Origin: Candidatus Aenigmatarchaeota archaeon | GTDB lineage: Archaea; Aenigmatarchaeota; Aenigmatarchaeia; QMZP01; QMZT01 | DNA length: 36,166 nucleotides | Assembly (NCBI GenBank): GCA_016932735.1 | Contig: JAFGCI010000006.1 | Span: forward strand, 1 to 36,166 | Direction: 5' to 3' | In this document: positions 12,820 to 30,826 of the stretch, one piece after another | Layout of the letters: each line of letters opens with the position of its first letter | Position numbering within the stretch: position 1 is the first letter of the stretch | Notes under the pieces: model-generated | The model's database searches: none | Seen by the model: only the letters and a program-made list of their open reading frames with translations | What the model was told of the DNA's origin: nothing | Made by a program: the position numbers and the translations under genes

Positions 12820-13425
12820 TTATTTACTCCTTATATCCCTAATCAGATCCAGAAGGCTTGACGTTTCATCTTCTTCGGATGAGCTTTCCGATTCGAGTCC
12901 GGCATCGAAGAGATCAATCGCTGACAGTATCTTTGCCTCGATTGTCATAGGCGGCGTCGGTCCTTTGTCGCCGAAATGCGAAGCCACCATATGTATCACT
13001 TCCGGCGGAAATCCTCTGGAATAAAGTTCCGAAGTTCCAAGCATCGTATGGTCCAGAAGAATCTCTGAACTATCCCATTCATCCTTGGATTTTATATATT
13101 CAAACACTTTCCCTATATCATGCAGGAGGCAACCCGCTATCAGAACGTCCGTATCAGTCTTTATCCCGTAGACACTCCTCAGGACTTCGGCAATCCTGAC
13201 CGACATTTTAGTGACGCTCAGTGTATGTTCGGCAAGGCCTCCCTCATAAACATGATGCCAGTTAAGCGATGCGGGGGCGTTTTCGAATCCTGAGTGCTTT
13301 CCTGAAAAATTCCTGTTGGAAAGGAAGGGATTTTTCAGAATTGATATTGTCTTTTTCCTTAGTTCTGCATTCCGTATCCTTTCTGCAATCTTAAGCAGTT
13401 CCTTCATTCTCGCCATAATTGACAT
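12820..13425 (-). CDS. HD-domain phosphohydrolase in the pilus operon
   Basis: A 201-residue HD-domain protein resembling the nuclease-associated HD domain of YhaM-type enzymes. Visible metal-ligand motifs are HHVYEGGLAEHTLSV, the HD pair in LLHDIGK, HTMLG and a later ASHFGDKG. HD domains of this type hydrolyse phosphoester bonds in nucleotides or RNA; the substrate is not evident. The frame extends to ATG 13461, but ATG 13425 has a G-rich Shine-Dalgarno-like run and a smaller overlap (35 rather than 71 bp) with the upstream gene. Its position between the ectodomain protein and the platform genes suggests coordinated expression with the pilus. The C-terminus is Ser/Glu-rich. Confidence 0.85.
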   Translation of the reverse strand: MSIMARMKELLKIAERIRNAELRKKTISILKNPFLSNRNFSGKHSGFENAPASLNWHHVYEGGLAEHTLSVTKMSVRIAEVLRSVYGIKTDTDVLIAGCLLHDIGKVFEYIKSKDEWDSSEILLDHTMLGTSELYSRGFPPEVIHMVASHFGDKGPTPPMTIEAKILSAIDLFDAGLESESSSEEDETSSLLDLIRDIRSK

Positions 13426-16400
13426 TGTCCCCCCATTTCTGTTTTTTCGCAGACTTATCATTTACTTCGATTTCCCCCAGTTCCTTTGCCAGCCCGCTCA
13501 TTGTTGATGCTATATTTTCTTTCCTTTCTTTCCTTTCCTGAAGTAGCTTCACAAAGGTCTCTTCATCGATCTCCCTTCTGAAATATTCCGAGTGAAGCAT
13601 ATCAATATCGTTCTCTATGTTCTCAAACTCAAGCTGCAGGTCCCTCAGCTTCTCCTTTATCACTAACCTCCTGTCTGTCATGTGTTTCTGCTGGACCTTC
13701 TTTTCGACCTCCTCCATGTCGATTTTCTCTGTCTTTGTTATGACGGTCGTCTTTCCCTTTCTCGCATATACGACCACTGCGGAGAACACTATAACAATAA
13801 GGATTACAGCGCCTATTATATAGAAAAGGTAGTCTCCTATATCCGGTTTCTTGACCGTCATCATGAAAGATTCAAGACCTCCGGTAATCCCTTTGTCGTC
13901 GCTTGCTGAAAAGTCAAAGGATAGCATTTCCCTTTCTCCAGTATCAAATGTTCCTACATATGTCCCGGGCTCAACTCCCCTTTCTAAAATAACATAATCC
14001 TCGCCGTTTATCCTCATTCTTATTGATGCATCGTTTGCAGGAACGCCGTTGCCGTATTCGGCTTTTACCTTCACCTTTACGGTCTGTCCCGGCAACAGTT
14101 GCTCATAATGCGAGGGTTCAAGAACCTTTATTGTCAGCCCGGCTCCCTCAAGCTGCAATATAACGGAGTTTGTTCCGTATTCATCGTTATTTTCCCCGAT
14201 GCAGACAAGGACCCATTCGGTTTTATTGTGATGCAAAGGGACGTTATATTCTCTTCTGTAAAACACGTTTTCTTTTTCATCGATTTCCTGAGCAAGCAGG
14301 AGCGTGTAATCTCCATTAATATCAGTGCAGTTCACTATCATGTTTTTAATATCCCTGTTGTTTTGTGTTACCCTGACTATTATAGGAACTTTCTCGCCCT
14401 TTGTTATCTTTCCGGCAGAAGTTGAAGGCGACAATATTGCCAGATTATAGTTGTTCATATCAGAGGGGTTTATTATCACATCAAGGGTTTTTTCGCCGCG
14501 GTTATTATAAGCATCCACTACCTCGATTTTTATCTGGCAGGAGCCGGCCGGAACCGCTCTGGAGATAACGATATTATCAATAGAATACGCGCCGAGGCCA
14601 TTGGCCTGGAAGCTGTCCGATTTTTTCTTGTATGTATCCCCGCATACAAGTTCAGCACTTACATATGCCCTTTTTTCAGTAACTCCTATTATCTTTATTT
14701 CATCAAAGGTGTTGTAAATCTGCCTGTCAGTCGAACCAGTCAACAATTGTATTATCGGTTCGACCGTCAAATCCTTTTCCTCTTCGAATTTCTGGTTTAC
14801 CGTTATCTTTATTTTTCCAAGGCCTGCAGCCGCTATCTCGCTGATTCTGCCCTTGCCTGTATGTAAGCCGTTCGAGTATCCAAGCGTCACATCGCTTTCC
14901 ATAAATTGCGAAGAAGCCGTCAGTATGCAGTCTGTGCAATAAGATCCATCTTTATACGCCTTTACCTCTATGTCAAATTCGTGCCCTCTTTTAAATGCCT
15001 CGGAAACCATGGGGGAGACTATGTCCAACATTATATTATCTGCTGCAGAATCATCATCGCCGTGAACCTCTATCAGGCCCGTATTCTGTGTAACGGACGG
15101 GGAGCCGGCCTTAACAGCCTTTATCCCCAGTTCGTACGTTCCCGAATCCCTGGCTTTAAGGTTCCATTTAGCCAGGGTCCCGCAGTCCATGGGGTTTGGG
15201 TGTATGCTATCAGCCAAATATATCTGGGTATCCGGTCCGATCTCACTGAAAGCCGGTGTGAAAGAGTTCTTATAAAGGGCGTAACATTTTATTATTCCGG
15301 TACAGTCGCCTATACATCTTCCCGAAAGCTCAAACTGTTCATCCGTCTTAAGAGCTGTAAGAGATGCGACTTTGGGATAGTCTATTTCTATGCTTAGACC
15401 TGTCGTAGTTGGCAATGTGTCATATCTGAAATACAGTTTACATATTTCCTGAACCGAATCAATCCCCGGAGCGCTGAAACCCATATACACATATCCGTCA
15501 TCTCCTATAACAGCATTATCGGTAGATACAGTCCAGTTGAAATTGTAGCTCTTGTCTCTGTCTAAAATATGATTTATATTTCGGGATCCGGAAACTCCAA
15601 GCCCCGTGGAGATAGTTCCGGTTACGTCTCCGCAGTCCCCTTCTATGCATTTAACTGTTGCACCCACGATAATATCTTCTCCCCGGTATATTGGCACCGT
15701 AGGATCCGGGCAATTGGCGTTCGCTATTTGCAATCTGCCCAAAGTTTCAGAACTTCCGCTTTCAGTGCTTACGGTCACCGGAATCTCAATGCTCTCCCCG
15801 CGTATACCGAGGTCCTGATTATTATAAAAGCCTGTCGCCCTGACACTGATGTAATCTTCGCCCGGATTAACGCCTGTTATCTCTATTTGAAATTCCTCGC
15901 TTTCTGTTTCTCCGGTATCCGTCCCCAGATAATTTGTGGATATAAATGTGTTTGTTGCTCTGATATTGTCTTCGGTGGAATAAAGCTCATAAGTCATTTT
16001 CCCGCAGTAGCCGTCCTTGCATGTTGATTTGAAAGTAATTGTGTCAGAACTTTGCAACGGAATATTATCCGGAAGTTCTGTATCGGTTGTTATTTCAACC
16101 CAGCCCACCTCTGTATAATTTATCAGCAGGGAGGCATTTCTAAGTTCGACGCAATAATACTTATCATTTTCCTGGGCTTTCAGCATTACAGAATAATTAT
16201 TCCTGTCGATAGAATTCCTGACATCGTCGCTGAAATAATTGTATGTGTTTGAACTGCTTTCCTTTATATTGAGCCAGTTTGTTGCGGTTGACGTATTTCT
16301 CACATAGAGTTCCATGCCTTTGTTGGTTTCAGAGTTTGGTATACAATTATTATTATAGAATTTGGCAGACCTGTAGTAGGCTGTCATGTTCACCTGATGT

Positions 16401-16600
16401 ATTATATATCCATTGTTTTCTGTATATGGATTGTTCCACTGGAAAATATAACTGTGGGGTGCCAATGCATAAGGGTCATGATAAACGCTGCTTGCTCTGT
16501 TATCGTAATATAAGCTATATTCCATTGAAGATACATGAACAGGAATTACCAGTAGAAAGTATAAGATGGAAATCAAAATAACGATGTCCTGATGCCTCAT
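13391..16600 (-). CDS. Large secreted membrane-anchored protein with cytoplasmic coiled coil
   Basis: A 1069-residue protein led by a signal peptide (VILISILYFLLVIPVHVSS). About 880 residues of beta-rich extracellular repeats follow, with paired cysteines (CKDGYCG, CIEGDCG, CIGDCTG) in repeated Ig/CARDB-like modules. One membrane helix (YLFYIIGAVILIVIVFSAVVV) leads to a cytoplasmic tail of about 120 residues that is strongly charged and coiled-coil forming, with a SHOCT-like segment (YFRREIDEETFVKLLQERKE). It heads the operon that continues into the HD, TadB, TadC and pilin genes, so it may be a filament-associated anchor or sensor. A minus-strand TTTATTTAA at 16627-16635 predicts an almost leaderless mRNA. 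Confidence 0.85.
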   Translation of the reverse strand: MRHQDIVILISILYFLLVIPVHVSSMEYSLYYDNRASSVYHDPYALAPHSYIFQWNNPYTENNGYIIHQVNMTAYYRSAKFYNNNCIPNSETNKGMELYVRNTSTATNWLNIKESSSNTYNYFSDDVRNSIDRNNYSVMLKAQENDKYYCVELRNASLLINYTEVGWVEITTDTELPDNIPLQSSDTITFKSTCKDGYCGKMTYELYSTEDNIRATNTFISTNYLGTDTGETESEEFQIEITGVNPGEDYISVRATGFYNNQDLGIRGESIEIPVTVSTESGSSETLGRLQIANANCPDPTVPIYRGEDIIVGATVKCIEGDCGDVTGTISTGLGVSGSRNINHILDRDKSYNFNWTVSTDNAVIGDDGYVYMGFSAPGIDSVQEICKLYFRYDTLPTTTGLSIEIDYPKVASLTALKTDEQFELSGRCIGDCTGIIKCYALYKNSFTPAFSEIGPDTQIYLADSIHPNPMDCGTLAKWNLKARDSGTYELGIKAVKAGSPSVTQNTGLIEVHGDDDSAADNIMLDIVSPMVSEAFKRGHEFDIEVKAYKDGSYCTDCILTASSQFMESDVTLGYSNGLHTGKGRISEIAAAGLGKIKITVNQKFEEEKDLTVEPIIQLLTGSTDRQIYNTFDEIKIIGVTEKRAYVSAELVCGDTYKKKSDSFQANGLGAYSIDNIVISRAVPAGSCQIKIEVVDAYNNRGEKTLDVIINPSDMNNYNLAILSPSTSAGKITKGEKVPIIVRVTQNNRDIKNMIVNCTDINGDYTLLLAQEIDEKENVFYRREYNVPLHHNKTEWVLVCIGENNDEYGTNSVILQLEGAGLTIKVLEPSHYEQLLPGQTVKVKVKAEYGNGVPANDASIRMRINGEDYVILERGVEPGTYVGTFDTGEREMLSFDFSASDDKGITGGLESFMMTVKKPDIGDYLFYIIGAVILIVIVFSAVVVYARKGKTTVITKTEKIDMEEVEKKVQQKHMTDRRLVIKEKLRDLQLEFENIENDIDMLHSEYFRREIDEETFVKLLQERKERKENIASTMSGLAKELGEIEVNDKSAKKQKWGDNVNYGENEGTA

Positions 16601-30356: not shown

Positions 30357-30413
30357 TGCATATCAACCTCTAATAATTTATTGTATGAATCCGCTTAAAT
30401 TGATTGTTGGAAC

Positions 30414-30456
30414 TATAGTGGACGACACGTCTTTCCGGATTTTGTCGTTCACTATA
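30414..30456. repeat. 14-bp inverted repeat (hairpin)
   Basis: TATAGTGGACGACA (30414-30427) pairs with TGTCGTTCACTATA (30443-30456), 14 pairs with one G-T wobble, around a 15-nt loop. It lies upstream of the 29-residue gene and tRNA gene, in a 190-bp AT-rich interval. It could be an operator, a transcript hairpin or part of an origin near orc1. Confidence 0.6.
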
Positions 30457-30457
30457 T

Positions 30458-30492
30458 TTCACTGACATTTTCAATTTCATTATATCAGTGAA
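30458..30492. repeat. 8-bp inverted repeat
   Basis: TTCACTGA (30458-30465) and TCAGTGAA (30485-30492) are perfect complements around a 19-nt spacer. The TTCACT core also appears inside the preceding inverted repeat, so the two may carry binding sites for the same protein. Confidence 0.5.
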
Positions 30493-30520: not shown

Positions 30521-30528
30521 CTTTATAG
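30521..30528 (+). promoter_or_regulatory. TATA box of the tRNA-Thr gene
   Basis: CTTTATAG lies about 23-27 bp upstream of the first base of the tRNA at 30548, the expected spacing for transcription starting at or just before the mature 5' end. Confidence 0.6.
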
Positions 30529-30569
30529 ATTAATTAATAGACATTAGGCCTCGATAGCTCAGTCTGGCA

Positions 30570-30600
30570 GACAGTATCGGAAACGATGTGTCCGGCAACA
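30570..30600 (+). other. tRNA-Thr intron 1 (D-arm, 31 nt)
   Basis: It interrupts the tRNA around positions 21-23. The junction is ambiguous by up to two bases (30570-30600, 30571-30601 or 30572-30602 give the same mature sequence). Inside, ATCG and CGAT close a GAAA tetraloop, extended by GACA/TGTC. A canonical bulge-helix-bulge is not obvious here. Confidence 0.8.
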
Positions 30601-30616
30601 GAGCGGCTGACTTGTA

Positions 30617-30689
30617 TCTGATATGGTGAGAAAACGTCGGAATGACAGCGCAAGGCTGTCGGTCTGGAGTTTTTCTGTGACCGTAAGAT
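30617..30689 (+). other. tRNA-Thr intron 2 (anticodon loop 37/38, 73 nt)
   Basis: This is at the canonical archaeal intron site after position 37. CTGA at 30618-30621 in the intron pairs with TCAG at 30691-30694 in the exon. TAT and ATA three-base bulges flank this 4-bp helix, and cleavage after the second bulge base gives the right mature loop. This is the expected bulge-helix-bulge substrate of the archaeal splicing endonuclease. The body also has a GACAGC/GCTGTC hairpin. Confidence 0.88.
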
Positions 30690-30711
30690 ATCAGCAGGTC
30701 CTGGGTTCGAA

Positions 30712-30769
30712 TAACCAACTCATGTGTAAATGAGTTCCATGTCACTGAAGGCGACTGTCGGTTAGAAAT
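30712..30769 (+). other. tRNA-Thr intron 3 (T-loop, about 59/60, 58 nt)
   Basis: It splits the T-loop; the exact junction is uncertain by a few bases, but all solutions that leave a 7-nt loop are 58 nt. AACC (30713-30716) and GGTT (30760-30763) pair at its base, and AACTCAT (30717-30723) with ATGAGTT (30730-30736) form an internal hairpin. Introns at 59/60 are known from some Thermoproteales tRNAs. Confidence 0.8.
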
Positions 30770-30783
30770 TCCCAGCCGGGGCT

Positions 30784-30796
30784 TATTTTTCTTTTT
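30784..30796 (+). terminator. T-rich terminator of the tRNA gene
   Basis: TATTTTTCTTTTT begins one base after the tRNA discriminator, the usual U-tract signal for archaeal RNA polymerase. Confidence 0.6.
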
Positions 30797-30826
30797 ATCG
30801 AACAATCAAAATAAGAAATAGTATTT

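Follow-up and report, generated by a model that had tools for sequence, protein, structure and literature searches.

Tandem interruption of archaeal tRNA genes has been described in the Thermoproteales (Pyrobaculum; PMC8450103, PMC4090602), where a gene may carry up to three bulge-helix-bulge (BHB) introns, situated at 37/38 and at other positions including 59/60, and where related introns occupy different tRNAs as a result of transposition. The tRNA-Thr(UGU) gene described here, taken together with the tRNA set of its genome, is similar in both respects. However, the Thermoproteales employ an (alpha-beta)2 endonuclease, whereas the present case concerns a DPANN archaeon with introns mostly at 59/60, an epsilon2 enzyme and a tRNA-Lys gene with four introns. 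The reading of the sequence alone that we have followed up (the sequence-only reading) placed multi-intron tRNAs mainly in the Thermoproteales, which is too narrow, as they are also published for the Asgard Atabeyarchaeia and Freyarchaeia (PMC11291895). According to the accessible part of that report most tRNA genes are disrupted there too, often at non-canonical sites, with over half of them multi-intron; those archaea belong to a different, unrelated phylum, and the same part of the report describes no dominance of T-loop introns.

A second group of related systems consists of introns that act as, or resemble, guide RNAs. The tRNA-Trp intron of Haloferax and Pyrococcus guides Cm34 and Um39 (PMC11408192, PMC7994747), and the tRNA-Met intron of Nanoarchaeum resembles a C/D RNA (PMC3491384). 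What these share with our locus is a 37/38 intron antisense to its own exon and nucleotide 39 as the target, here a predicted one at D+5 spacing. They differ in that the tRNAs concerned here are those for Thr, Cys and Ser, that there is one box pair rather than two, that the introns are often only 30–40 nt long, and that the boxes depart from consensus. No report of a guide in tRNA-Thr was found in the literature searched, the coverage of which is partial.

The window, by which we mean the whole stretch of 36,166 nucleotides analysed, comprises bases 1–36166 of contig 11 of a 1.18 Mb assembly (11 contigs, 90.6% complete, 0.3% contaminated). Its FttA-like protein (642 aa) has its nearest relatives, 63–69% identical, in Candidatus Aenigmatarchaeota MAGs, and the assembly as a whole represents a DPANN MAG of Aenigmatarchaeota-like affinity. 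Once 31 nt (D loop), 73 nt (37/38) and 58 nt (59/60) are removed from window positions 30548–30783, a 74-nt tRNA-Thr(UGU) is left (GCCTCGATAGCTCAGTCTGGCAGAGCGGCTGACTTGTAATCAGCAGGTCCTGGGTTCGAATCCCAGCCGGGGCT), which ARAGORN calls as tRNA-Thr(tgt) and which folds into a complete cloverleaf with one acceptor mismatch, A7-C66. This confirms the three-intron gene of the sequence-only reading, a 236-bp gene maturing to 74 nt, in its coordinates, its intron lengths and its product. The mismatch, also remarked on in that reading, is real here; the same position is an A7-U66 pair in a relative of the same genus (G001).

The suspicion that standard annotation could miss such a gene is borne out as well. 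ARAGORN called no tRNA in the raw window, and Rfam gave nothing at gathering score in the same sequence, the three weak matches near the gene lying far under the cut-offs. An intron-aware finder written for this work, which builds a cloverleaf and tolerates insertions in any of the three loops (D, anticodon and T), scores the tRNA-Thr(UGU) gene at 16.0, and returned 0 matches of 15 or more from 2.06 million strand-bases of Markov-shuffled sequence. The parts of the gene are collected in Table 1.

Table 1. Features of the tRNA-Thr(UGU) gene and its flanks, in window positions
Feature	Position	Strand	Remarks
TATA-box-like TTTATAG	30522..30528	+	about 20-26 nt 5' of tRNA start; by eye in sequence
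Exon 1: 5' acceptor strand, D-stem 5' strand, D loop, GCCTCGATAGCTCAGTCTGGCA	30548..30569	+	
Intron 1, 31 nt, D loop	30570..30600	+	CA repeat blurs the ends by a few nt
Exon 2: D-stem 3' strand, anticodon-stem 5' strand, anticodon TGT, A37	30601..30616	+	
Intron 2, 73 nt, 37/38; BHB central helix CTTG/TAAG; houses antisense and k-turn module	30617..30689	+	
Antisense CTGATAT	30618..30624	+	complements 30688-30694, the final two intron nts and exon nts 38-42
Box D'-like GTGA	30626..30629	+	nt 39 partner lies exactly 5 nt 5' of box
C'-like strand TGTGA (3-nt bulge + GA)	30676..30680	+	closes k-turn-like motif over 5-bp stem
Exon 3: A38-A59	30690..30711	+	predicted methylation target U39 at 30691
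Intron 3, 58 nt, T loop 59/60	30712..30769	+	BHB: T-stem, 3-nt bulges, TTC/GAA central pairs (one mismatch), AACC/GGTT
Exon 4: T60, T-stem 3' strand, acceptor 3' strand with C66, discriminator U73	30770..30783	+	
T-rich terminator-like run TTTTTCTTTTT	30785..30797	+	directly after gene; by eye in sequence

Inspection of the splice sites provides further insight into how the introns may be removed. At 37/38 a BHB is formed in register, with 3.5 of the 4 pairs of its central helix. The sequence-only reading had described a BHB for this middle intron, and that stands, although the structure is not restricted to it: the 59/60 sites of this gene fit a relaxed BHB, in which 3 of 4 central pairs form, with a G57-A mismatch, next to the intron helix. 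No register of the D-loop intron yields a strict 3-4-3 BHB, and the position of its ends is uncertain within a few nucleotides. Among 38 T-loop introns from two genomes, nucleotides 54–57 and the intron 3' end are paired in 140 of 152 cells when in register, as against 42–90 when slid; the outer intron helix of the same introns likewise peaks in register (110 versus 44–78), and the pair at nucleotide 57 covaries (26 A-U, 5 G-C). The finder is blind to this pairing, which accordingly played no part in the detection of the genes. The T-loop introns form a standard BHB at 59/60, an intron position already known in archaea (PMC4090602).

Such sites had been taken to imply a splicing endonuclease of broad specificity, and a gene of a suitable type is present. 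The EndA of the genome is a 394-aa reading frame (L065:1198-2382), of which residues 7-394 align co-linearly, over the full length, with 10-387 of the ARMAN-2 epsilon2 EndA (PDB 4FZ2; 358 bits, E 6e-106). Y239, H253 and K284 correspond to the catalytic Y236, H251 and K282 of the ARMAN-2 enzyme, and K159 to its specificity-loop (ASL) lysine K161. Judged by this comparison, which is one of sequence alone, EndA is of the three-unit epsilon2 type. Broad substrate specificity has been reported for epsilon2 EndA (PMC6379350), and an enzyme of this kind would explain cleavage at relaxed sites.

The tRNA-Thr(UGU) gene had also been viewed as unusual, and this does not hold within its own genome, where disruption is the rule. 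The Rfam tRNA model finds only 9 genes above its cut-off in the genome. By applying a model of the tRNA 5' three quarters, patterns and the finder, with short stretches around candidates, we assembled 34 tRNA genes (a list that excludes Leu, Trp and others, a multi-intron Ser(UGA) being seen but not among the resolved genes), and the spliced forms of all 34 are called tRNA by ARAGORN. Twenty-eight of the 34 are disrupted, by 55 introns in total. Of these, 25 interrupt the T loop at 59/60, 16 the D loop and 13 the 37/38 site, with a single one at 30/31; tRNA-Lys was added to this tally by hand. Three introns each are found in tRNA-Thr(UGU), Ile(GAU), Ile(UAU) and Tyr. The tRNA-Lys(UUU) gene (G000, which is this genome, contig 1, L078:1309-1563, +) has four (D loop 26, 30/31 25, 37/38 89 and 59/60 41 nt), with perfect central helices at 30/31 (CACC/GGTG) and 59/60 (TTCG/CGAA); the archaeal maximum has been given as three introns per tRNA gene (PMC8450103). 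The L078 fragment was at one point considered a second tRNA-Asn, an assignment rejected in favour of tRNA-Lys(UUU) with its fourth intron at 30/31.

Across 155 genomes of the class the number of candidate matches per genome ranges from 2 to at least about 30, which suggests that heavy tRNA disruption is widespread in the class. Because standard tRNA models recover roughly one quarter of the set assembled here, tRNA counts and completeness figures are unreliable for such genomes. Extreme tRNA disruption now extends to a DPANN class of small genomes, where it is paired with an ARMAN-2-type epsilon2 endonuclease. As a separate observation, an Ile tRNA with anticodon UAU and three introns is present both in this genome (L120) and in G001 (L155). 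Many archaea decode AUA via a modified CAU anticodon instead.

The extent of interruption raises the question of whether the tRNA-Thr(UGU) gene is a decaying pseudogene broken up by inserted sequence, another locus encoding the real tRNA-Thr(UGU). The A7-C66 mismatch would fit such decay, and so would the orthologue of G001, which has the D-loop and 37/38 introns but lacks the T-loop intron; moreover, as the genome is about 91% complete, there is some room for a second copy in the part not assembled. However, the second copy that the sequence-only reading had named as the mark of a pseudogene was found neither by DNA match nor with the 5'-three-quarter tRNA model nor with the anticodon-arm pattern (at most 1 mismatch), the gene itself being the sole DNA match and the sole Thr(UGU) anticodon-arm pattern match in the genome. 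All stems are intact apart from A7-C66, disruption of the same kind affects the majority of the genome's other single-copy tRNAs, and orthologues throughout the class share the intron sites. A 37/38 intron is present in 40 of 51 tRNA-Thr(UGU) genes assembled from relatives, several of which add D- and/or T-loop introns. All three introns are found in G037, of the same order, the D-loop and 37/38 introns in G033, and the 37/38 intron alone in many other relatives; G082 has a T-loop intron that its congeners G042, G077 and G097 do not. From this pattern of presence and absence we conclude that the 37/38 intron is old and that the others come and go. With no second copy found and intron-bearing orthologues kept in relatives, we regard a pseudogene as very unlikely.

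Movement of introns can be seen directly within the genome. In BLAST comparisons among introns, the T-loop intron of tRNA-Gly(CCC) matches that of tRNA-His at 98% over 63 nt, the D-loop intron of Ala(CGC) at 90% over 59 nt and the D-loop intron of Thr(GGU) at 100% over 32 nt. The family concerned (TGAGGCCTTCTTTCCGAGAGCTG...) occupies the T loops of His, Gly(CCC) and Ser(UGA) and the D loops of Ala(CGC) and Thr(GGU) (L016, L021, L118, L119, L129); the same comparison gave no such copy of the tRNA-Thr(UGU) introns. As near-identical introns occupy different tRNAs and both loops, we conclude that they move. Transposition between tRNAs has been published for the Thermoproteales (PMC4090602); here copies are exchanged between the D loop and the T loop as well, and introns differ even within one genus. 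Very probably this is a functional single-copy tRNA-Thr(UGU) gene whose three BHB-type introns are cut by an epsilon2-type EndA, in a tRNA set disrupted by mobile, mostly T-loop introns.

The 37/38 intron contains a further layer that the sequence-only reading missed, a conserved module of antisense and k-turn elements. Sequence antisense to exon nucleotides 38–42 is present in 34 of the 40 Thr(UGU) 37/38 introns, compared with 11% of shuffled introns, and a GA at the exact D+5 distance for nucleotide 39 in 31 of the 40, compared with 0.7% of shuffles. On 26 distinct sequences the 7-bp antisense helix is 98.4% paired (25-48% when slid); this sample was chosen for a 5-bp match, which biases five of the pairs towards pairing and leaves two intron-intron pairs unselected. 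Four of the 7 pairs change on both sides, counts of covariation that are inflated by the relatedness of the sequences. One of these doubly changed pairs is intron-intron, occurring as C-G, A-U and U-A, with both partners altered in 12 of 26 rows, and because such a pair covaries the anticodon stem by itself does not account for the helix. This covariation also bears on the notion that the antisense merely reflects ancestry, the anticodon-stem strand having been duplicated long ago at the origin of the intron and the copy kept by homology only. CTGA is indeed a direct repeat in exon and intron, as such an origin would have it, but given the changes in intron-intron pairs, and the retention of the element beside long extra insertions (G107, G142), we consider this improbable.

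Downstream of the antisense, NNUGA follows the box in 30 of 32 introns, and in 18 of the 32 the stem that it directly closes has three or more base pairs, an arrangement that is k-turn-like and is found in 1.3% of shuffles. A plausible explanation, although one on which we are evenly divided, is that the 37/38 intron may also be a guide of a reduced, box C/D-like kind, directing 2'-O-methylation to nucleotide 39 of its own tRNA and acting before splicing or in trans. The genome encodes fibrillarin (G000:C10:8550-9179, E 1.2e-76). A second box pair was not seen in the Thr(UGU) intron, and the boxes are GUGA and TGTGA, as against the consensus CUGA/RUGAUGA; with one pair and non-consensus boxes we do not class the element as a box C/D member, only as one that would work like it. 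It is not simply the most stable fold, an idea we rejected since the anticodon-stem form is more stable than the antisense helix in 24 of 33 cases. At just 7 bp, the antisense duplex spans the 3' splice site and has the anticodon stem as its competitor. Within one molecule the guide and splicing forms are mutually exclusive and, with the splicing form usually the stabler, guiding would need proteins or would act in trans.

These same properties could also be those of a structural or regulatory splicing element, in which the helix masks the 3' splice site, perhaps with L7Ae bound, and no methylation is guided. Such a role would be in keeping with the position of the helix over the splice site, with its rivalry with the anticodon stem and with the presence of a single box pair; k-turns bind L7Ae in many archaeal RNAs. 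Three observations are less readily accommodated. The spacing between the partner of nucleotide 39 and the GA box is constant, whereas the remainder of the intron ranges between 30 and 103 nt; the module is present in 0 of 6 genes of the class with G39, whereas the antisense is present in all those with U39 or C39; and the same spacing recurs, with other sequences each matched to its own exon, in the tRNA-Cys and tRNA-Ser(CGA) introns of this genome (L009, L020) and in tRNA-Cys of G001 (L233). We treat a splicing element as a serious possibility, albeit one that we doubt somewhat more than we credit.

A pattern search for tRNA-Cys returned 13 genomes, with the module clear in G000 and G001, recognizable by eye in G150 (L227) and absent in several, so that in tRNA-Cys it is not class-wide. 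Returning to methylation guidance, its broader form would be that the 37/38 introns of Aenigmatarchaeia tRNA-Thr(UGU), and here also of Cys and Ser(CGA), are one-box-pair C/D-like guides, down to 30-33 nt in size, for Nm39 of their own tRNA, a proposal for which we see the case for and against as about equal. If guidance is correct, it would offer a testable reason for the persistence of 37/38 introns, and a selected function would keep some tRNA introns while others, mostly in the T loop, behave as mobile passengers.

We infer the course of transcription, cleavage and ligation in the cell, and the order of splicing, as follows. A precursor tRNA-Thr(UGU) would be transcribed, and methylation of nucleotide 39 would perhaps occur with the intron still in place, or be brought about by the intron after its release. 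The epsilon2-type EndA would cut the BHBs in a proteinaceous splicing of all three introns, and a ligase would join the exons.

The neighbouring genes are of kinds ordinary for archaea (Nre, topoisomerase I, FttA, an Lhr-type helicase and a Cdc6-like gene). The window also holds a 1069-aa reading frame (13391-16600, -) without any Pfam match. Between the upstream gene and the tRNA lies a strong inverted repeat (window 30410-30460; TATAGTGGACGACA...TGTCGTTCACTATA), which is possibly a terminator or the remnant of a mobile element.
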